This document shows positions 876 through 10,206 of a stretch of 64,000 nt of DNA, piece after piece. A program made the position numbers and the translations under genes. Position 1 is the first letter of the stretch. Every line of letters begins with the position of its first letter. Where the stretch lies: contig NZ_HG942058.1 in assembly GCF_000612665.1 (NCBI RefSeq), positions 62,001 through 126,000 of the forward strand. The letters are read 5' to 3'. Source of the DNA: Neobacillus dielmonensis. GTDB taxonomy: Bacteria > Bacillota > Bacilli > Bacillales > Cytobacillaceae. The notes beneath the pieces are model-generated. The model had not been told where the DNA came from. It saw only the letters and a list, made by a program, of their open reading frames with translations, and did not search any database.

Positions 876-1958
876 TTACTCCTTTATCCGTCCAATATTA
901 TCAAGAGACAGCACTTCCTGCGGAACTCTCCGCTTCTCCTCCCAAAGCTGTTGGATCCGTTCAGCCAAGTCCGGTCGTCCATGCTGCTGAAAATCTTCCA
1001 CCACCCGTTGCAAATAGGTACGATTCTCATTTTGATTCTTTTCTGTGTGGTTAGTTAAATATGTATCAAGCATTGCTTCATAAATTGATACAGCCAGACC
1101 AATGTTGGCAGAAGGATAGGTTTCTTTTAACCTCACATAAATCCCCCATCCTTCCGGATCAATATCCCCGACATAATCAATCGTTACAGCCTCCATGTTG
1201 GTGATATCATGTAAGAAATTAAAGCTTTTCTCAATCTTCTTACCTTCTCCATAAATCACCAAATCCGGTTGAATCCCCTTAATATCCTTGCCACGATTGA
1301 TTAATAATCTACATGTATGATAAAAAGATTGATTCTCTACGATAAGAACGGTTTTGGCATTTCGAATGTCACCATGAGGCGCTAGCCAAAAAGCAAACGG
1401 CTCCCCATAGACTCTAGCTTTCAAATCATCCAACGTGATCTGCAATCGCTGCAACAATCCAGTACCCTCATTGGCAAGGAATTTTTCTTCCCTAAACAAC
1501 TGAAACGATCGCTCTTCCCTTGTCACCCAGGTGTATTGTTCGATTTGTTTTAAAAAAGAATAGAGGATTTCGATTCGCTTCCATTCTTGAACGGTTTGCC
1601 ATTCGGGATGCTGCCGGTATTTGCTTAGATTCATAAGGTTAGATACAGCCATTATTTGTGTATCACTCCACTGAGTCGCTAGGACTGCCTTTTCCAGCCA
1701 CCATTCGGTATGCAAGCTAGGTCTTCTCCCGTTCAAAGGACTTTTCTTAACGGGGGTAACAATACCCTCTTCTGTTAATTCATTCATGATTTGAACAAAA
1801 TAACGGTAACCGTTCTCGGCTTGATAGCGGATGGGTTCTTTTAGTTTATCTTTGATGAGGTAATTTTCTAGTTGTTGGATATGTATCTTTTTTCGTTTGG
1901 TTGGCAATTGAAGCGCTTTTAGATATTCCTGTAACCACGTCTTCATCTTATCCTTCAT
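876..1958 (-). CDS. jetD: Wadjet JetD (DUF2220, Toprim nuclease subunit)
   Basis: A 360-aa protein with an N-terminal helical/winged-helix region and a C-terminal Toprim-like DUF2220 domain. The Toprim acidic residues are visible: the glutamate in IVENQSFY (about residue 208) and the GDIDPEG motif (264-270). JetD is the DNA-cleaving subunit of the Wadjet condensin-like system, which restricts circular plasmids by loop extrusion followed by cleavage. The start ATG at 1958 has AAAGGTGG about nine bases upstream. It is translationally close-coupled to jetA. Nothing looks truncated, and the Toprim motifs look intact. Confidence 0.88.
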   Translation of the reverse strand: MKDKMKTWLQEYLKALQLPTKRKKIHIQQLENYLIKDKLKEPIRYQAENGYRYFVQIMNELTEEGIVTPVKKSPLNGRRPSLHTEWWLEKAVLATQWSDTQIMAVSNLMNLSKYRQHPEWQTVQEWKRIEILYSFLKQIEQYTWVTREERSFQLFREEKFLANEGTGLLQRLQITLDDLKARVYGEPFAFWLAPHGDIRNAKTVLIVENQSFYHTCRLLINRGKDIKGIQPDLVIYGEGKKIEKSFNFLHDITNMEAVTIDYVGDIDPEGWGIYVRLKETYPSANIGLAVSIYEAMLDTYLTNHTEKNQNENRTYLQRVVEDFQQHGRPDLAERIQQLWEEKRRVPQEVLSLDNIGRIKE

Positions 1959-2289: not shown

Positions 2290-4152
2290 TTATTCTAATT
2301 TCCCGTTACTTTTCTCAACCATATATTTTTCCAAACTCTTATCACAACAATAAACATAACAACCTTTCATTCCTCTTGTCATTAATGTCTTATATGTATT
2401 TCGGATTAGTTCCTCAAGTGGGTCAGTTTGACCTTTTTTTGGTTTAGCAGGTTTTGCACCTTTATCTTTAAACTCGTCCCGCCTAATAATAGTCTTTTTG
2501 GTATCTTCATTATAACCCAGGTCATTACCGATGATGACACCAACATAATCCATTTCTAGTCCTTGTACGGTATGAATACAACCTATTTGATTTGAACATT
2601 CAGGGTGAATGGCCCAATCAATTCGATTAGGGTCATTCCATGGTAAGGCAAAATTATGCTCCTCAATAATTACATCATCGGGGAGTTTTCCATTCACACT
2701 TACTTTATTCCATCCCCAAGAATAACCAGCTAAAAGTCTTCCACCACGCTTTACAACAATTTCCTTAAATAATTGTTGAGGAGTCGAAATGACTTTAAAA
2801 TCAAAATCCCCTTCAAGCTTAAATGTTTCTTTTTCATTGTTGAGTATGCTATCTAACCAAGAGATATAATTTCCTGATCCTGAACAGCGGTACTGCGACT
2901 CCAGCTCAATTTTATGGATTTCGGCTCCAAATCTCGCAGCTTCTTTTTCTACTTCTTTAACACTTCCAATGTCTTTCTTAGAAATTTTTTGTAAATCATC
3001 TATAAAAAATACACTTATCCTTGATGATCTAATTATTTGTGTAACCTGATTTTCCCCTTCAATCTTTTTTTTCATATGGCCTTGCTCTTTTAATCGATGG
3101 GCTTCATCGCAAATTAGAACATCAAAATAATTTTCAGGTGCATTCACATAAGAGGCTGATCCTTTAAATAAATCCCTTACCTCCAAATGACCTGAAGATC
3201 CGATTAACTTTTTTCTAAGAACTTCTCTAAATGCTTGATTTGGAGTTATATACTCTACATATGCTTTTTTGTTTAACATATAGCCCATCAAATTTAACCC
3301 AATGACAGATTTACCTGTTCCTGGGCCGCCCTCAATAATAATCACGTGTTTTTGTTCAGTTTGTTTTCTAAATTGATTATATTTGCTTACTACCTTTTCA
3401 TACGCTACTTTTTGTTCATCTAATAACACAAACTCTTCATTGCCCTTTAATAGTGAACTAACCGTTTCCACTAGTTTTTTTGATGGCCTAATTTTAGCCT
3501 TTTCGATTGCTTCAGCTATTTCCCTTCCATTACCTTTAGAAACAAGTTTACGAATATTTTTTGACAATTCCCGATCTCCAAATTGGAAATACAGCGGAGA
3601 TTCTTGAAGATAGTTGCTATACCTTTTATCAAGAAGCGGCTCCCCGATACTTGCCATAATATAGTTATGTAAATAAGCACAAGAATGAAGTTGAATATTA
3701 GATGTATCACTATATAATGACTCGTTAAAATTCTGTAAATATTTCTTATAGGATGAGGCTTGGTAGGACGGATGCACTGTCTCCCGTTCCCTTCCCCCTA
3801 AAAAGGTGCTAACGATTCCATCCCCCTCAGCAGCCTTTGCTTTTTGCCATTGTTTCAATTCAATAATGACAGCATTTTTCCTTCCTTGTTCATCTTCCCC
3901 TGCCACTAGAAAATCAATTCTCTTTTCAGAAGACGGAAGTTTATACTCTAATAATACATGTGTATCATCTTTTAAATCGGCATCTCTAATTACCTTTGCC
4001 ATTTGTGGAAGTGAGTTTTCCCAAGACCTTAGTTCGCTACCGGAAACTACTTTATTCATTTTTGTTAAGACATTTTCTTTTAGGACATAACCGATTTTTT
4101 TCTCATAGATATGGTGTAGAAATTTAGAAGAGGTCTCATTATAAATAATCAT
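2290..4152 (-). CDS. PD-(D/E)XK-like nuclease plus DUF2075 (Schlafen-3-type) helicase
   Basis: A 620-aa two-part protein. Residues ~65-135 carry a restriction-endonuclease-like core: acidic D80, then the E-x-K motif in VIIELKQW (E98, K100) and a downstream conserved-looking glutamine in HPSYQASSYKKYL. Residues ~240-620 are a P-loop NTPase of the DUF2075 type: Walker A GGPGTGKS (275-282), Walker B VLICDEAH (345-352), and a late motif HTVQGLEMDYVGVIIG typical of superfamily 1 helicases. Its ATG overlaps the stop of the MazG-like gene by 4 bases (ATGA), so the two are translated as a unit. Such nuclease-helicase fusions are common in phage-defence islands; the actual target is unknown. Confidence 0.8.
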   Translation of the reverse strand: MIIYNETSSKFLHHIYEKKIGYVLKENVLTKMNKVVSGSELRSWENSLPQMAKVIRDADLKDDTHVLLEYKLPSSEKRIDFLVAGEDEQGRKNAVIIELKQWQKAKAAEGDGIVSTFLGGRERETVHPSYQASSYKKYLQNFNESLYSDTSNIQLHSCAYLHNYIMASIGEPLLDKRYSNYLQESPLYFQFGDRELSKNIRKLVSKGNGREIAEAIEKAKIRPSKKLVETVSSLLKGNEEFVLLDEQKVAYEKVVSKYNQFRKQTEQKHVIIIEGGPGTGKSVIGLNLMGYMLNKKAYVEYITPNQAFREVLRKKLIGSSGHLEVRDLFKGSASYVNAPENYFDVLICDEAHRLKEQGHMKKKIEGENQVTQIIRSSRISVFFIDDLQKISKKDIGSVKEVEKEAARFGAEIHKIELESQYRCSGSGNYISWLDSILNNEKETFKLEGDFDFKVISTPQQLFKEIVVKRGGRLLAGYSWGWNKVSVNGKLPDDVIIEEHNFALPWNDPNRIDWAIHPECSNQIGCIHTVQGLEMDYVGVIIGNDLGYNEDTKKTIIRRDEFKDKGAKPAKPKKGQTDPLEELIRNTYKTLMTRGMKGCYVYCCDKSLEKYMVEKSNGKLE

Positions 4153-4463
4153 TTGCTTACTTCCTCTTTGGTGATAACTGGATATTTTACTGCATTTTTA
4201 TTAAGCTTACTAAAGACTTCCTTTTCTAGATCAATCTCCATTTTATCGGCTAGTTGCACGAGATAAATTAATATATCCGCCATTTGTTCTCTAATATTTT
4301 GGTTTGACTCAGCGATTGCTTCTTCACTTGTCCTCCATTGAAAATTCTCAAGCAACTCACTCGCTTCCAGAGATATTGAAATAGCCAAATCCTTTTCAGT
4401 ATGATATTGTTTCCAACCTCTTTCATCACGAAAGCTTAAAACTTTGTTGCGAATGGTATTCAT
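4149..4463 (-). CDS. MazG-like nucleotide pyrophosphohydrolase
   Basis: A 104-aa all-alpha NTP pyrophosphohydrolase of the MazG/RS21-C6 type, which cleaves (d)NTPs to NMP and pyrophosphate with Mg2+. The metal-binding pattern is visible as SLEASELLENFQW (E-x-x-E) followed by REQMADILIYLV (E-x-x-D). I start it at the ATG at 4463 because TTAGGAGAG sits just upstream; an upstream in-frame ATG has no such site. It overlaps the DUF2075 gene by 4 bases, so a small nucleotide hydrolase is coupled to a nuclease-helicase. Depletion or sanitising of nucleotides is an inference from the family. Confidence 0.85.
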   Translation of the reverse strand: MNTIRNKVLSFRDERGWKQYHTEKDLAISISLEASELLENFQWRTSEEAIAESNQNIREQMADILIYLVQLADKMEIDLEKEVFSKLNKNAVKYPVITKEEVSK

Positions 4464-4929
4464 CTTTCTCTCTCCTAAATTCAGCAATATACTTCATTAT
4501 TACCTTATTTTAACACTTCTTTCCTAATTCGACACCAAAGAACAAATGCTAATCAAAAAAGCTTTCTAAGAGTTTATACTTTATTCACTATTTAGTATTA
4601 ATTAATTACTTATCAAACAATAATGTAACATTTTTTAACAATTTCTTATAATTCACATCCGGTCTCATACGAGAGTTAGAAACAGTATTGCGAAATTCAT
4701 ACTTTTTCGAGATCTACATTGATCTAATATTTATTTATGTAATTCAGCATAACCCTGAGAATAAAACTTTGACAAATTACCACTAGGGTGGAGTTAAAAG
4801 GTAATTGGGACGTGTTTATGGAAAAATACCTACCGTAAAGAAAGGGTCTATAAAGGAAGCATCTATAATTTAATAGTAGTTGAATTTTCTCATTTTGCCT
4901 TGGCCAAGGATCCAACATGAATTTCTCAC

Positions 4930-5137
4930 CTATTGGCCAACAATCAACATCGACTCATCTTCTGCAATTAAGTTGGTATTATTCTTGATTAATTCTTCTA
5001 CATCGTGCTCATTCATGCCTAAATCAGAAAAACTTGTAGGCTCAATAGGCACTGCCTCATTGTTCCTTATGTAAAACAATTGTCTCCCTCCATCCTTTAA
5101 GAGGTGTAGCTAATTGAAATTCTTTATTACCACTCAT
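4930..5137 (-). pseudogene. Remnant of a nuclease-type gene (broken frames)
   Basis: After the JAMM gene comes TAAGGA, then ATG at 5137 opening MSGNKEFQLATPLKGW..., which stops at 5057. In another frame, GGAGGGAG precedes a TTG that opens a 48-codon stretch containing NNEAVPIEPTSFSDLG and LIAEDESMLIVGQ, ending at TAG (4930). That second stretch resembles the N-terminal region of DUF91-like nuclease domains (pattern LF-x-I-x-NN-E ... SFSDLG ... LLIIG), but it ends where the catalytic part should begin. I read it as a decayed or truncated gene. The rest of 4464-5151 shows nothing else convincing. Confidence 0.4.
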
Positions 5138-5151
5138 TATTAAATCATTCC

Positions 5152-5931
5152 TTATTTTAGTTTTTCCAAATGATGGTCAAAATTACTTTTTCCCCGCTCT
5201 AAATTTTCTTCCCGTAAATTAAATTCCATCTTGCGTAACCGATAAGTTTCATGCGGCGGGACATCTTTTAGTTTTATATTTTCTTCATTTAAAATCATTA
5301 GCAAATCTGCTTCTGATGAGAACAAGTCAACATCTATTAAAGACCTGCCTGTATTTTTATAAGCCCGAATGGTAAACACGTATTTTTGAAATTCTCCACG
5401 TATGTAAGATGTTTGAACCTCAGCTGGTCGAAAATCAGGAAAATCATGTCCATCGGCAGTGGGATTATATGAAAATTCATAAGCATCACTTTCTCCATAT
5501 TCCAATGTCAATGGCTTGTTTCCTTTTCCATTTCGCGCGATGGCAATGATAAAAAATTACGGTAAATTTAAGTAATCCGCTGAACCGCAGTCCCCATTAC
5601 TGGGATTGGCCCAACCTTCGAATGGTTCATCATACGGATGGCTATGATAGGTGCCCAAACAGTTTGAAGTTGAAAATAATTGTTTAGCAGATTGAATGGC
5701 TAAATCTACCTTCGAATCCGGCATCACGGAAACATCGTCCCGTCCAGCTACGCTACCAACAGGAAATGCGTAATCACACTCCACTGACTTTTCTTTATCC
5801 ATTCCAAAAATGAGCCCATGCGCTTCAGAATGAACCTTTTTTGTAGTGTGTGGAAAAAATTGTACTGCGTCTAAGATGATTGTTGATAGGACATGGTGAA
5901 TAAATTCTACTGGTTTATTATTTTTACTTAA
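5152..5931 (-). pseudogene. JAMM/JAB (Mov34) metalloprotease gene with in-frame stop and lost start
   Basis: One continuous frame of about 260 codons is interrupted only by TAA at 5557-5559. The JAMM zinc site is complete before the stop: glutamate in SEAHGLIFG (codon 36), HSHP (codons 96 and 98) and S-x-x-D (S111, D114). After the stop the same frame goes on as FFIIAIARNGKG..., the expected next strand of a JAB fold, then a beta-rich C-terminal part. The codon six bases after GAAGGAG is TTA, not a start, and no ATG/GTG/TTG exists in frame before codon 44. JAMM proteins remove ubiquitin-like modifiers; here function is probably lost unless readthrough occurs. Confidence 0.75.
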
Positions 5932-5944
5932 ACGTGACTCCTTC

Positions 5945-6472
5945 TTAACTTATCTCATAAGTTACAAATTTTTTTAAAACGTTCGGTTCTTCTTCTGATA
6001 CGTATACCTCTTTACATGGAACCCCAAGTAAACGATCCGCCAAGTACATAAATCGCAACTGCGGTTCACGCAAAAAGTCTTTTCCCTTTTTGACTTCGGC
6101 GAAAAAACAGGAGTGGGTATTGAAAACAAATAAATCTAGGTTTTCAATTTTGTAGCCTTGATCATATAGGGTTTTTCCCTTTTGGCTAAAAGATTCATAT
6201 TTATCATTACCAACCATCATTTTAATAAGATCATTATACCGTTTGTATTTAGATGTTTTTGAAAATAAATCGAATTCATTATTAATCACATAATATCCAA
6301 GGGAACGGAAATATCTCTCTGCCATCCACTCTCCAAAACCATAACCATTCGCCACACCATTCCCCTTCCAGGCTAAAGCAAACTCTGGTACGATAGCCGG
6401 ATCACGCTCTTTCCAGCGAAACAATGAATCTTTTTCCGTTGGAATCATCAGTTGCTCTATTTCAATTCGCAC
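5945..6472 (-). CDS. VRR-NUC-like PD-(D/E)XK nuclease
   Basis: A 175-aa protein. The C-terminal half has the nuclease core LDLFVFNTHSCFFAEVKKGKD: D113, then E126-V-K128, followed by REPQLRF with a glutamine typical of VRR-NUC domains. The N-terminal half contains NGYGFGEWMAERYFRSLGY, a pattern seen ahead of such domains. It starts at GTG (6472) with GGGGGGAG six bases away. Its stop is 13 bases before the JAMM gene, so these form an operon. Nuclease plus JAMM pairing suggests a defence or protein-conjugation-linked function; this is inference. Confidence 0.68.
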   Translation of the reverse strand: MRIEIEQLMIPTEKDSLFRWKERDPAIVPEFALAWKGNGVANGYGFGEWMAERYFRSLGYYVINNEFDLFSKTSKYKRYNDLIKMMVGNDKYESFSQKGKTLYDQGYKIENLDLFVFNTHSCFFAEVKKGKDFLREPQLRFMYLADRLLGVPCKEVYVSEEEPNVLKKFVTYEIS

Positions 6473-7424: not shown

Positions 7425-8855
7425 TTATTTTTTTCGCAACTCTAGTATCTTCCTTACTAAATAAATCCCACCTAAACCAATGCCCCCCCATAACGGTGTG
7501 GCGATCCATGGAGTATACGATTTATTGGCCGGCCAATGTGAATTATCTATAAAGGAAATGAGCCCCGTGCTGTCATTTATCGTTGATAGGATAACAAAGC
7601 CAGTAGTAACGGCTAAGATAATGTTTTCAATTTTTTTGCTTCTCTTAGATTTTTCCATCTCTGTTATGGACGAGAGAGCTTCAATTTCAAGATGCAATTC
7701 ATCCATTAAGTCCTCAATTCTTAGTACCCTGCGGAACATCTCATACAATGCCGTCTGATGAGTAATAAAACTAACTTGTTTAAAGGAACATCTTAAAATA
7801 AAGAAAACCATCTTGGATTTTAGGCTTTCCATATCCTTTTGGGCATCTTTTTTATCCTCTAAATACTCTTCCAACGTAGCCGGAAGTCTTGAGGCCAAAA
7901 TAGAAAAATATTGCAAGGTATAATATTGATTCAGCACTAAGATATATAAATAAAAGTACACGTCCCTGATATTTGCTGCATGGGTCTCTTTAAAAAATGT
8001 ATCGGATTCATCATTTTTCAAGTAAGCAATGTGAGCCGCACCCTCTAGCGAAACACCCCAAAAGCTGTTTTCAAATAACTGAATAATTTCATCATTGTTG
8101 TCCGGATCATATTCTGATGGGGCCGCCGCATACGTTTCCTTAAACGACCGCCTCATTCGAAATAGATAGGTAAGTAACTGCTTATTATTGTCTTGAACAC
8201 TATTATAATTAGAATCCATTAATACAGAACTATATATCAAAGCATAACTTGGCAGCTTCTTTATTTCTTCAAAATAGGTATCTACGGTGACGTTACTCAA
8301 AAACTCTTGAACTAGTTGACAAAAAGAAACTTTCTCCTCATCATATGTATTCTTGCCCGTTCTCTTAAAATAACGCAACTCATCTTTATATTGGTAGATT
8401 TTCTTCAAATAATAATTACATAAAATAATATCATCAATCTCTTGACCAATCGGGTACTTGATATCGAAAACAACAAACCCAGTTTGTGTTTCAAATAGGT
8501 AAAAGTGAACACCAGAAATGGCAAACTGAAACTTTTGCCCATCAGGTGTAAATTCCATTAAATCATTATTATTTTTGGGAAGGTTAAAGGTCGCTCGTGC
8601 CTCGTGTTTTAAGGCAAATCGTGTACCAATCGCTTCATTTTTATGGATGGAATCCTTATCAATTAACCGATTAATGTGGGCAAATAAACGATGTTGATTA
8701 AAACTTTCCTCTTTCCAAATTTTTTCTGATTCGTTATTTTTCTTCTTTACAAACTCCGCATTGGTTATTTTTTCAATCGTTTCCTCATAGCTTGACTTGA
8801 TGGCAAAAGGTACAATCAGGAAAGTTGATTGGGTTTCACTTTTATACCTGTACAT
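7425..8855 (-). CDS. Unknown protein with two C-terminal membrane segments
   Basis: A 476-aa protein I do not recognise by family. The first ~400 residues are soluble, mixed alpha/beta then long helices, including a coiled-coil-like stretch (RRVLRIEDLMDELHLEIEAL). Two hydrophobic segments close the protein: IIENILAV-type helix near residue 405-425 and WIATPLWGGIGLGGIYLV near 450-470, followed by a basic tail. The layout recalls CorA-like proteins (large cytosolic domain, helix stalk, two C-terminal helices), but no GMN motif is seen. I prefer the ATG at 8855 (AAAGGCAGG upstream) over 8879. Location among defence genes hints at a membrane effector; unproven. Confidence 0.6.
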   Translation of the reverse strand: MYRYKSETQSTFLIVPFAIKSSYEETIEKITNAEFVKKKNNESEKIWKEESFNQHRLFAHINRLIDKDSIHKNEAIGTRFALKHEARATFNLPKNNNDLMEFTPDGQKFQFAISGVHFYLFETQTGFVVFDIKYPIGQEIDDIILCNYYLKKIYQYKDELRYFKRTGKNTYDEEKVSFCQLVQEFLSNVTVDTYFEEIKKLPSYALIYSSVLMDSNYNSVQDNNKQLLTYLFRMRRSFKETYAAAPSEYDPDNNDEIIQLFENSFWGVSLEGAAHIAYLKNDESDTFFKETHAANIRDVYFYLYILVLNQYYTLQYFSILASRLPATLEEYLEDKKDAQKDMESLKSKMVFFILRCSFKQVSFITHQTALYEMFRRVLRIEDLMDELHLEIEALSSITEMEKSKRSKKIENIILAVTTGFVILSTINDSTGLISFIDNSHWPANKSYTPWIATPLWGGIGLGGIYLVRKILELRKK

Positions 8856-8983
8856 TTTAATGCCTGCCTTTCTTTCCATTTAGTTCAGATCCAATATACC
8901 CCATCGACTTTCATTTCAAGAGCCGAGATTTCGTTGTAACAAATGATTGGCAATCCGCCGAACATATCCTACACTTCACTACT

Positions 8984-9982
8984 TTAGCTTCGTTTTTTCT
9001 CCTGGACCCATTCTTCTAAGTTGGCAAAAAAATCTTGATTCAGCTCATTTTTGCTGTCAGGTTTTAATAGGTTCGTAATATGCTTCACATTATTTTGCCA
9101 TTCGAATTCGATAACTGGATAGGAATTCCAATCTCTATCAAATATCCCGTCACTATATATATCTGATTGGCAAGTAACAAATACGTCTTTATTTAAGGCA
9201 CTCGCTATTCCTGCTTCAAGATGCAGCCAGCCGGAAGAGTATTTTTTATGTATTTTATCTTTTTGTTTTTCTCCACCTACTCGATCGCGTAAAAAGTAAG
9301 CATGGCTTCTCTCAAGACCAATCACAATCATTGCCTCACATTCTAAAACAGTGTCTGTTACTCTTCCTATGGGGTCCTTCTTTTGATATTTGCCGATCGT
9401 TACCCGAACAGGTTTAATTCCCATTTTTCTGAGTCGGTTAGAGAAAGATTCTAGGAAAAATCTTTGGAACTCTGTGTCGGGATTGACGGTACTAATGAAA
9501 ACTGGGATTAAGTCTTCGTCATTTATGGTTTCATTTTCCTTGATAATTCGTTCTAAATGATTAGAAAAGTTTTTTGTATATACCTTTAAAATAGTCTGTA
9601 TAGAATCAAGAATCATATCTGCAGCACTTTGCGCAGAATCTTTGGAATGGCCTGTATCATGCACTAAACCATTACGGATTTCTCTGATTAAGTTACATCT
9701 ATAAATGATTTCTTGTGGAATTTTTATTTCATTATTTCCTTCTCGATTATTGAAATTTCTTAAATGTTCTATGTAGTCATTTAATACTTTAAAATCGGTT
9801 TTCTTAGCCTTTAATTCACGCATGAAATCAGCTAAAAACCCTTCTAAAAATACAGCCCCCCATACTGCCGATGCAAAATATTGCTCCGTGTTAAAGTTCA
9901 TCGAACAATTTTGCAAATGATCAAAAGTAGATTCGGAAAGATACGGTTCATATTCAAAAAATTCATATCTTTTTTCTGGCAT
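8984..9982 (-). CDS. HEPN-like plus TIR/SLOG-like fusion protein
   Basis: A 332-aa protein. Residues 1-140 are helical and carry RNGLVH (103-108), matching the R-x4-H catalytic motif of HEPN ribonucleases. Residues ~155-295 look like a Rossmann-type TIR/SLOG or deoxyribosyltransferase-like domain: VFISTVNPDTEFQRFF, then ECEAMIVIGLERS, and WLHLEAGIASALNKDVFV, whose glutamate (256) sits where such folds bind or cleave nucleotides. The start at 9982 has AAGGGTGAG upstream. The architecture fits a nucleotide-sensing or NAD-acting toxin or abortive-infection effector; that role is inference. It appears monocistronic. Confidence 0.6.
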   Translation of the reverse strand: MPEKRYEFFEYEPYLSESTFDHLQNCSMNFNTEQYFASAVWGAVFLEGFLADFMRELKAKKTDFKVLNDYIEHLRNFNNREGNNEIKIPQEIIYRCNLIREIRNGLVHDTGHSKDSAQSAADMILDSIQTILKVYTKNFSNHLERIIKENETINDEDLIPVFISTVNPDTEFQRFFLESFSNRLRKMGIKPVRVTIGKYQKKDPIGRVTDTVLECEAMIVIGLERSHAYFLRDRVGGEKQKDKIHKKYSSGWLHLEAGIASALNKDVFVTCQSDIYSDGIFDRDWNSYPVIEFEWQNNVKHITNLLKPDSKNELNQDFFANLEEWVQEKKRS

Positions 9983-10206
9983 TAAACTCACCCTTAAACA
10001 AATAGTTGTTATGTACTGCAAAAAAAGTTATAGGCTAATTATAGTACAAAATGACCATTCAAAGAATAGATTTCTACCTATCTTAGTAATAGATGGTTCT
10101 TACAAGCATAGATAGAATTAGAACCCCATACCGTTACGTTTCCTACTTATCTGAGTCAACGGACGCCATAAAAGTGGATTATCGTGTGGCTATGAGGTTC
10201 ATCCTA

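Follow-up and report, generated by a model that had tools for sequence, protein, structure and literature searches.

A recurrent pyrophosphohydrolase and nuclease-helicase gene pair in Neobacillus dielmonensis as a candidate two-gene defence module

Closest described systems

Gabija is a two-gene nuclease and helicase system with a link to nucleotides, and inhibition by, and depletion of, nucleoside and deoxynucleoside triphosphates (NTPs and dNTPs) has been proposed for one of its representatives, a model that PMC12407980, which describes it, itself argues against. Here we describe a gene pair with similar logic from Neobacillus dielmonensis, located in a 64,000-nucleotide (nt) stretch of contig NZ_HG942058.1 (assembly GCF_000612665.1, positions 62,001 to 126,000), hereafter the window. 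One gene encodes a small protein of a nucleotide pyrophosphohydrolase family and the other a protein joining a predicted nuclease to a Schlafen-group-3 helicase domain. Our leading explanation, whose chances we judge to be evenly balanced, is that the pair is a widespread, unnamed and horizontally spread module in which the two genes are coupled in defence against invading DNA. It differs from Gabija in that a single protein combines nuclease and helicase, the nucleotide enzyme being encoded by a gene of its own, and Gabija was rejected as an assignment since neither window protein matched a GajA or GajB model of PADLOC at E values up to 1.

Among other PADLOC profiles, the window helicase protein is distantly related to PDC-S41, an unnamed candidate (E 9.3e-20). 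Judging from its entry name, we take it to be a single-protein candidate. The match falls in three stretches, the best covering residues 190-318, and the similarity is weak (51-69 bits, the model having 657 positions). Homologues match best over other parts of the protein (residues 3-287 in locus L107 and 411-610 in L205), and from these alignments PDC-S41 may share the whole nuclease-helicase layout. Two hydrolases scanned against PADLOC matched no model. Nhi and AbiO have a related helicase part (PADLOC; AbiO 3.2e-13, Nhi 4.9e-10); membership of either system was rejected because their best stretches cover residues 220-405 (Nhi) and 181-405 (AbiO) of 620 and leave the nuclease part unmatched. 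Neither is known to work with a pyrophosphohydrolase partner.

The helicase domain (PF09848) is that of Schlafen group III, as in SLFN11 and SLFN14, SLFN11 being the first Foldseek match of the window protein. Unlike these proteins, the window protein has no Schlafen RNase core among its Pfam matches, and a PD-(D/E)xK or GIY-YIG N-terminus is found instead in the family. Bacterial Schlafen defence, as described in PMC12839542, concerns the RNase. The hydrolase has the fold and ExxE..ExxD motif of DCTPP1/RS21-C6 (PF12643), and its near-invariant Trp17 and Trp43 align with positions 47 and 73 in the chain of mouse deoxycytidine triphosphatase (dCTPase); it differs in being linked to a nuclease-helicase and, in the window copy, in having Gln at the third metal ligand. 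Nucleotide-depleting defences (deoxycytidine triphosphate (dCTP) deaminase, dGTPase and Clover) would share an enzyme acting on dNTP pools (PMC12265719), whereas here the enzyme has an all-alpha pyrophosphohydrolase fold and is paired with a putative DNA-cutting motor.

The sequence-only reading that first drew attention to this locus assigned the pair to no named system. In open-licence PubMed Central (PMC) literature no paper on the pair was evident, an earlier description being possible, and none joined DUF2075 with MazG or DUF2075 with phage defense; a paper connecting nucleotide pyrophosphohydrolases and helicases with anti-phage defense concerned phage adsorption, to judge by its title. 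Among the DUF2075 papers, judged by title and the start of the abstract, none dealt with function, one of them having the family merely in a COG list, and PMC7159879 has no mention of MazG, Schlafen or "pyrophosph". This agrees with the absence of a name, with two qualifications. One is the distant relative PDC-S41; the other is DefensePredictor, a 2026 machine-learning study that has a MazG NTP pyrophosphohydrolase as a predicted, unvalidated defence domain (PMC13092281) in a system that possibly overlaps the present pair.

The two proteins and their active sites

The two reading frames, their minus-strand orientation and the ATGA overlap proposed from sequence for positions 2290-4463 were all confirmed (Table 1). 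The hydrolase frame has an alternative in-frame TTG at 4487 besides its ATG start, and promoter and terminator scans gave signals no greater than in shuffles.

The 620-amino acid (aa) protein contains a whole PF09848 SLFN-g3 helicase domain above the Pfam cut-off (E 1.5e-91, 307.7 bits, profile positions 1-354 of 354), and its Walker A and B motifs are intact, which by sequence makes it an SLFN-g3 helicase. An alignment of 82 proteins, comprising the window protein and 81 homologues, shows these motifs and an N-terminal D..ExK and QxxxY signature to be nearly or fully invariant (Table 1). We take these N-terminal motifs to be those named PD-(D/E)xK and QxxxY. Strands 65-69, 79-86 and 92-100 surround the nuclease motif residues in the AlphaFold model (predicted local distance difference test (pLDDT) 90.5, predicted template modelling score 0.90), so that the N-terminal part has the hallmarks of a RecB-like nuclease in a strand-rich domain. 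The Pfam scan of the protein reported no nuclease domain, and the nuclease assignment is made because of the motifs and model strands, as the structure matches cover mainly the helicase part. Foldseek against the Protein Data Bank (PDB) placed human SLFN11 first (2.5e-11), with DSH9, Dna2 and RecD2 among the further matches, and VIA-align gave UvrD a Z score of 20.3 (301 residues, root-mean-square deviation (rmsd) 3.9) and SLFN11 one of 18.2 (273 residues, rmsd 3.8, helicase part); such superfamily 1 (SF1) helicase matches mostly span the helicase part with either method. The fusion of an E-x-K nuclease core to a Schlafen-group-3 helicase, as first read from the sequence, is thereby upheld, E98 and K100 being invariant.

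The 104-aa protein matches the MazG-like family PF12643 (E 3.2e-17, 63 bits against a cut-off of 27) and, among PDB sequences, 4qgp (1.4e-20) and mouse dCTPase 6sqw (1.4e-14). Its model (pLDDT 94.5) is structurally closest to the archaeal pyrophosphatase 4qgp, then to mouse and human dCTPases, two of the matched dCTPase entries having 5-methyl-deoxycytidine nucleotides bound; the first 19 structural matches have template modelling scores to the model of about 0.7-0.8 and 32-45% identity. Because dCTPases are near the top of these matches and E. coli MazG appears only at rank 49, the model identifies the protein as DCTPP1 (dCTP-pyrophosphatase)-like and not MazG sensu stricto. The initial label of MazG-like is therefore correct at the level of the Pfam family and by structure should be moved towards DCTPP1.

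In the hydrolase alignment of 49 rows (the window protein and 48 partners), the complete ExxE..ExxD metal site is kept by the family and missing in the window copy, which has E33, E36, Q60 and D63. Position 60 is Glu in the 48 other rows and in eight close clade relatives (codon GAA or GAG), one of which is also among the 48. By analogy with the family, residue 60 is presumably the third metal ligand, and on the same analogy the window copy may bind nucleotides without hydrolysing them or may carry a recent lesion. The ratio of nonsynonymous to synonymous substitution rates (dN/dS) of the hydrolase has a median of 0.109 for pairs involving the window copy and 0.08 among other relatives, with dS near saturation, and the corresponding helicase medians, subject to the same saturation, are 0.042 and 0.041. 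By these ratios the hydrolase gene has long been under constraint and purifying selection, and they do not support the window copy as a general pseudogene. The claim that one protein of the pair hydrolyses nucleotides thus fits the conserved site of the family, but is doubtful for the window copy in view of Q60.

Recurrence and variants of the pair

A scan of GTDB genomes with the helicase alignment found at least 260 relatives, the best 80 of which, plus one viral contig, make up a set of 81 loci picked by helicase sequence alone. Partners were detected with a profile made from 11 hydrolase sequences, and adjacency was defined as same strand and within 100 nt. On that definition a hydrolase gene adjoins the helicase gene in 48 of the 81 loci (39 upstream and 9 downstream), or in 41 of the 70 whose flanks each reach 500 nt or more, and inspection added a 49th adjacent pair (L191). 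The genes overlap by exactly 4 nt in 17 of the 48. Four further loci have the partner near: at 385 nt, at 871 nt with one gene between, at 4.8 kb, and divergently oriented at 52 nt. No conserved third operon gene was found among the 81 loci, the largest neighbour cluster being present in nine.

By record title, adjacent pairs occur in Bacillota, Bacteroidota, Pseudomonadota, Thermodesulfobacteriota, Nitrospira and Spirochaetales, and also in Parcubacteria, Peregrinibacteria, Saccharibacteria and one woesearchaeote; an Omnitrophica bin has a near, non-adjacent pair, and several of the records for these taxa are metagenome bins. The pair therefore spans many phyla and is not particular to the lineage of the window, so that the restriction to one lineage named by the sequence-only reading as a refutation does not apply. 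In a quick tree, partner presence requires 15 changes, gene order six and the S24 domain described below six; the partner occurs in most deep branches, and its absences cluster among Bacillaceae-type and Lachnospiraceae-type rows without being confined to them. Over 47 rows, the correlation between hydrolase and helicase distances is r 0.316, the best of 5000 permutations reaching 0.310. In a phylum sample of 249 genomes, five of ten strong helicase matches (at least 138 bits) lie no more than 2 kb from a PF12643 gene, and two of the other five are on contigs shorter than 4 kb.

Both PF12643 genes of the window's own genome sit at its two SLFN-g3 helicases that exceed the cut-off. In the second of these pairs (L113 7824-9926, G000:C63) the nuclease is of the GIY-YIG and not the PD-(D/E)xK type. 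Searching 397 genomes from the order to which the window belongs gave 25 helicases of this clade, 19 of which fit a strict GIY-YIG pattern; Pfam places the N-terminal GIY-YIG domain above cut-off in L110 and L113 and does not report it for L117. A partner is adjacent on the same strand in 22 of the 25 (7 upstream and 15 downstream), and all 22 partners keep E33, E36, E60, D63, W17 and W43.

A further variant is an extra LexA/UmuD-type S24-like domain at the C-terminus of 12 of the 81 helicases; 11 of these carry a GxSM serine motif and 10 have an Ala/Cys-Gly site, and Pfam Peptidase_S24 is above cut-off in the one helicase checked (L205). The Ala/Cys-Gly site resembles, we presume, that of self-cleaving repressors, and the sequences suggest that S24-bearing helicases may be controlled by DNA damage.

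The pair is patchy and its copies partly decayed across 35 congeneric genomes. One clade relative (L137) has an intact helicase and a partner split into two open reading frames (ORFs), and a close relative (L138) has the helicase without a partner; helicases are decayed in L101-L103, and in L102 and L127 the partner is intact and the helicase broken. The co-occurrence count called for by the sequence-only reading (48 of 81 loci, and 22 of 25 in the second clade) accordingly bears out its statement that the two genes act together to the extent that they form a strongly associated, recurrent unit, but not an obligate one, as about a third of the loci lack the partner in the DNA retrieved and either gene can be lost alone.

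Helicase relatives are present in 36 of 72,556 plasmid records and 4 of 50,697 phage records, and at least one is in the viral collection IMG/VR. Plasmid-borne pairs were seen in Priestia, where type I restriction genes are nearby and the hydrolase gene overlaps a DUF3578 gene, in Halalkalicoccus, and in Marivirga, where the helicase is broken. As a separate observation, Microcystis phage Mwe-JY31 (L135, PP438423.1) carries a hydrolase-helicase pair within its 22-kb record.

Candidate functions and genomic surroundings

The surroundings of the pair are rich in defence families. With a threshold of E 1e-20, PADLOC families number 102 for the 100 proteins neighbouring ten loci with a pair or its remnant. 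The control consisted of 20 regions of the same ten genomes, two per contig at fixed fractional positions, whose 145 proteins match 19 families, and the 127 nearest neighbours across L137-L206 match 167 families, all of these being counts of overlapping families and not of proteins. On those terms the defence-island enrichment that the sequence-only reading had proposed to look for is present. The top labels among the 127 neighbours are mREase_IV, HEC-06, PbeA and Orf5, of which some (such as mREase_IV and PbeA) fall on general helicases, and Pfam finds GmrSD in three, DUF3427 in two, RhuM in two and NUDIX in two of the same proteins. Within 6 kb, a PLD-DEAD-DUF3427 cluster occurs in nine of the 81 loci and a NUDIX cluster in eight, one example of each being confirmed by Pfam; the NUDIX example is labelled PDC-S07 by PADLOC and the PLD-DEAD-DUF3427 helicase of L157 mREase_IV.

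Since the linkage has survived flips of gene order, a swap of nuclease and wide transfer, joint function is its best explanation, and the patchiness, decay, plasmid carriage and surroundings rich in defence families point to conflict with invaders as its setting; S24 and NUDIX associations favour a link to DNA damage. The defence explanation also draws on the active-site conservation and purifying selection in both proteins, the type III Wadjet next to the window pair, the phage-borne pair, the distant relationship with PDC-S41 and the likeness of the hydrolase to dCTPases. What the data show is the anatomy of the two proteins, their conserved catalytic residues, the pairing across phyla with changes of order and nuclease, and the defence-rich neighbourhoods. 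Nucleotide depletion and modified-nucleotide sensing, put forward by the sequence-only reading, are candidate mechanisms. We infer a defence function, DNA as substrate of the larger protein, a nucleotide substrate for the smaller one and a coupling of the two activities as follows. The effector would be an SF1 Schlafen-group-3 motor with an N-terminal nuclease, PD-(D/E)xK here and GIY-YIG in the sister clade, which would load on ends, forks or single-stranded stretches of invader DNA, unwind and cut. During the same event, the dCTP-pyrophosphatase-type partner would lower dCTP or 5-modified dCTP, starving invader replication and leaving stalled or unmodified DNA open to attack by the motor. 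Because Q60 may impair its hydrolase, the window unit would perhaps rely solely on the nuclease-helicase, or use the partner for binding without catalysis.

Several findings weigh against a coupled defence module. The partner was not seen in the retrieved DNA at 28 of the 81 loci, four of which have a flank shorter than 400 nt, and metabolic genes surround some of the partnerless helicases. Among 11 plasmid loci opened, three have an adjacent partner, one has it at about 0.6 kb and seven have none, including L134, whose helicase is 88% identical to the GIY-YIG helicase of the window's own genome. Hydrolase and helicase trees mirror each other only modestly (r 0.32), the PADLOC enrichment is one of overlapping families, and the window hydrolase lacks a metal ligand. 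In addition, the S24 and NUDIX associations suit a role in DNA damage or nucleotide hygiene equally well.

That last point leads to the main rival, which we regard as unlikely but substantial: an SOS or stress unit for DNA repair and nucleotide hygiene, in which the hydrolase clears damaged or unwanted dNTPs and the nuclease-helicase processes damaged DNA. Such a unit would spread as an accessory fitness gene and not as antiviral defence. The S24-bearing helicases with their Ala/Cys-Gly sites, the NUDIX clusters, the presence of Dna2, RecD2 and UvrD among the structural matches and the lone helicases among metabolic genes all fit this explanation. Against it are the patchy distribution within the genus, the decayed copies and plasmid carriage, together with surroundings that match many more PADLOC families than control regions do; in regulators of prophages and mobile elements, moreover, S24 domains likewise act as triggers.

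A narrower proposal, which we think improbable, is an anti-modification arm, the hydrolase destroying the 5-modified dCTP with which phages protect their DNA, so that this DNA contains ordinary cytosine and can be cut by the nuclease-helicase and neighbouring restriction enzymes. In its favour are the dCTPases, two entries with 5-methyl-deoxycytidine nucleotides, as the closest solved structures after the archaeal pyrophosphatase, and neighbours such as GmrSD (3 of 127), a C5-cytosine methylase in L140 and the DUF3578 gene overlapping the Priestia hydrolase gene. Such cytosine-modification neighbours are, however, a minority, the mREase_IV label gives no independent support as it falls on the PLD-DEAD-DUF3427 helicase of L157, and DCTPP1-type enzymes also accept plain dCTP.

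Much less probable still is a toxin-antitoxin system in which the small partner neutralises a toxic nuclease-helicase. The arrangement of a small gene with a large nuclease gene, often small-first and with overlapping stop and start codons, is as expected of such systems, but no partner is present in retrieved DNA at 28 of 81 loci, the helicase is intact beside a split partner (L137) or none (L138), the partner is intact beside a broken helicase (L102 and L127), and the partner's catalytic residues are conserved, unlike those of a mere binder. As each gene survives without the other, the MazG-like partner was rejected as an antitoxin. Chance or hitch-hiking of functionally unlinked neighbours in defence islands, suggested by both being common accessory genes and by most MazG-like matches of the phylum sample lying far from a strong helicase match, is extremely improbable and contradicted by the data, as about one such gene per genome would make adjacency roughly a 1-in-1000 event by our estimate, compared with 48 of 81 and 22 of 25 seen, and as exact 4-nt overlaps recur in 17 of 48 pairs, both gene orders exist and the tree spans many phyla.

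A bolder form of the defence explanation, which we put forward as speculative and rather unlikely, is an ancient, unnamed modular immune system of bacteria and archaea consisting of a swappable nuclease (PD-(D/E)xK or GIY-YIG) on a Schlafen-type motor and a dCTP-class pyrophosphohydrolase that denies the invader (modified) cytosine nucleotides, sometimes with a LexA-type self-cleaving domain through which DNA damage would switch the motor. If the pair is a defence system, it would be a widespread one not described as a pair in the profile library PADLOC-DB 2.0.0, it would join attack on the nucleotide pool to DNA cutting, themes usually found apart, and the Schlafen group-3 helicase domain could be studied in it in a simple bacterial context. 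How the two proteins share the work is directly testable with the variants that nature provides, in gene order, nuclease, S24 fusion and partner loss, and with the window copy that has lost an active-site residue.

Table 1. Positions of the gene pair, its motifs and associated features. Coordinates are window positions unless a contig or locus is named.
Feature	Position	Strand	Evidence or conservation
Hydrolase gene	4152..4463	(-)	104 aa, DCTPP1/MazG-like all-alpha nucleotide pyrophosphohydrolase (predicted); PF12643, PDB sequence matches, model
AGGAGA, ribosome-binding-site-like	4471..4476	(-)	7 nt before hydrolase ATG at 4463; sequence reading
ExxE metal-binding motif, E33 and E36	4356..4367	(-)	E33 47/49, E36 48/49; 22/22 each in second clade
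Codon 60, CAA (Gln); Glu in relatives	4284..4286	(-)	Window is sole exception in 49 rows; Glu in 22/22 second-clade partners
D63, final residue of ExxD	4275..4277	(-)	D in 49/49
ATGA overlap, 4 nt	4149..4152	(-)	Helicase-gene start and hydrolase-gene stop
Nuclease-helicase gene	2290..4152	(-)	620 aa; PF09848, AlphaFold model, Foldseek
Putative PD-(D/E)xK core: D80, E98xK100, Q131xxxY135 (RecB-like QxxxY)	3748..3915	(-)	Each 82/82 in alignment
SLFN-g3 helicase domain, residues 268-604	2341..3351	(-)	Pfam stretch
Walker A GGPGTGKS, residues 275-282	3307..3330	(-)	G275, G276, G278, G280 and K281 each 82/82
DEAH box, residues 349-352	3097..3108	(-)	D 81/82, E 82/82, A 80/82, H 82/82
JetD of type III Wadjet, neighbour outside the unit	876..1958	(-)	PADLOC JetD3 1.1e-115
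Complete type III Wadjet	876-1958 and G000:C46:56144-62873	Same as pair	Four PADLOC type III models
S24-like C-terminal domain	L140, L142, L149, L164, L167, L188, L194, L195, L205, L210, L211, L213		

Directly downstream of the window pair, on the same strand, is a complete type III Wadjet system with jetD, A, B and C in transcription order, the last three genes lying mostly outside the window (PADLOC JetA3 9.2e-176, JetB3 3e-87 and JetC3 1.9e-216). Wadjet was rejected as part of the unit, since no relative of the four Jet proteins was present in 30 other stretches searched.

On the other side of the pair, positions 5152-5802 and 5945-6472 hold a JAB-like protein (YHSHP motif, weak Prok-JAB match) split by an in-frame stop and, upstream of it, a nuclease-like ORF (PADLOC REase_II 0.004); they have the appearance of decayed conflict genes. 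The same island encodes a 345-aa protein at 8984-10021 without a Pfam, PADLOC or NCBIfam match and a 484-aa protein at 7425-8879 that matches PADLOC CorA-like models (4e-20) and has no Pfam match. In other genomes, a parallel NUDIX and/or PLD-DEAD-DUF3427 nuclease-helicase unit stands beside the pair or a lone helicase (L146, L147, L157, L158, L159, L170 and L216), and in L147 a small gene at 4685-5005, pyrophosphohydrolase-like by eye, lies close to the helicase with a NUDIX gene on one side and an HNH gene on the other.

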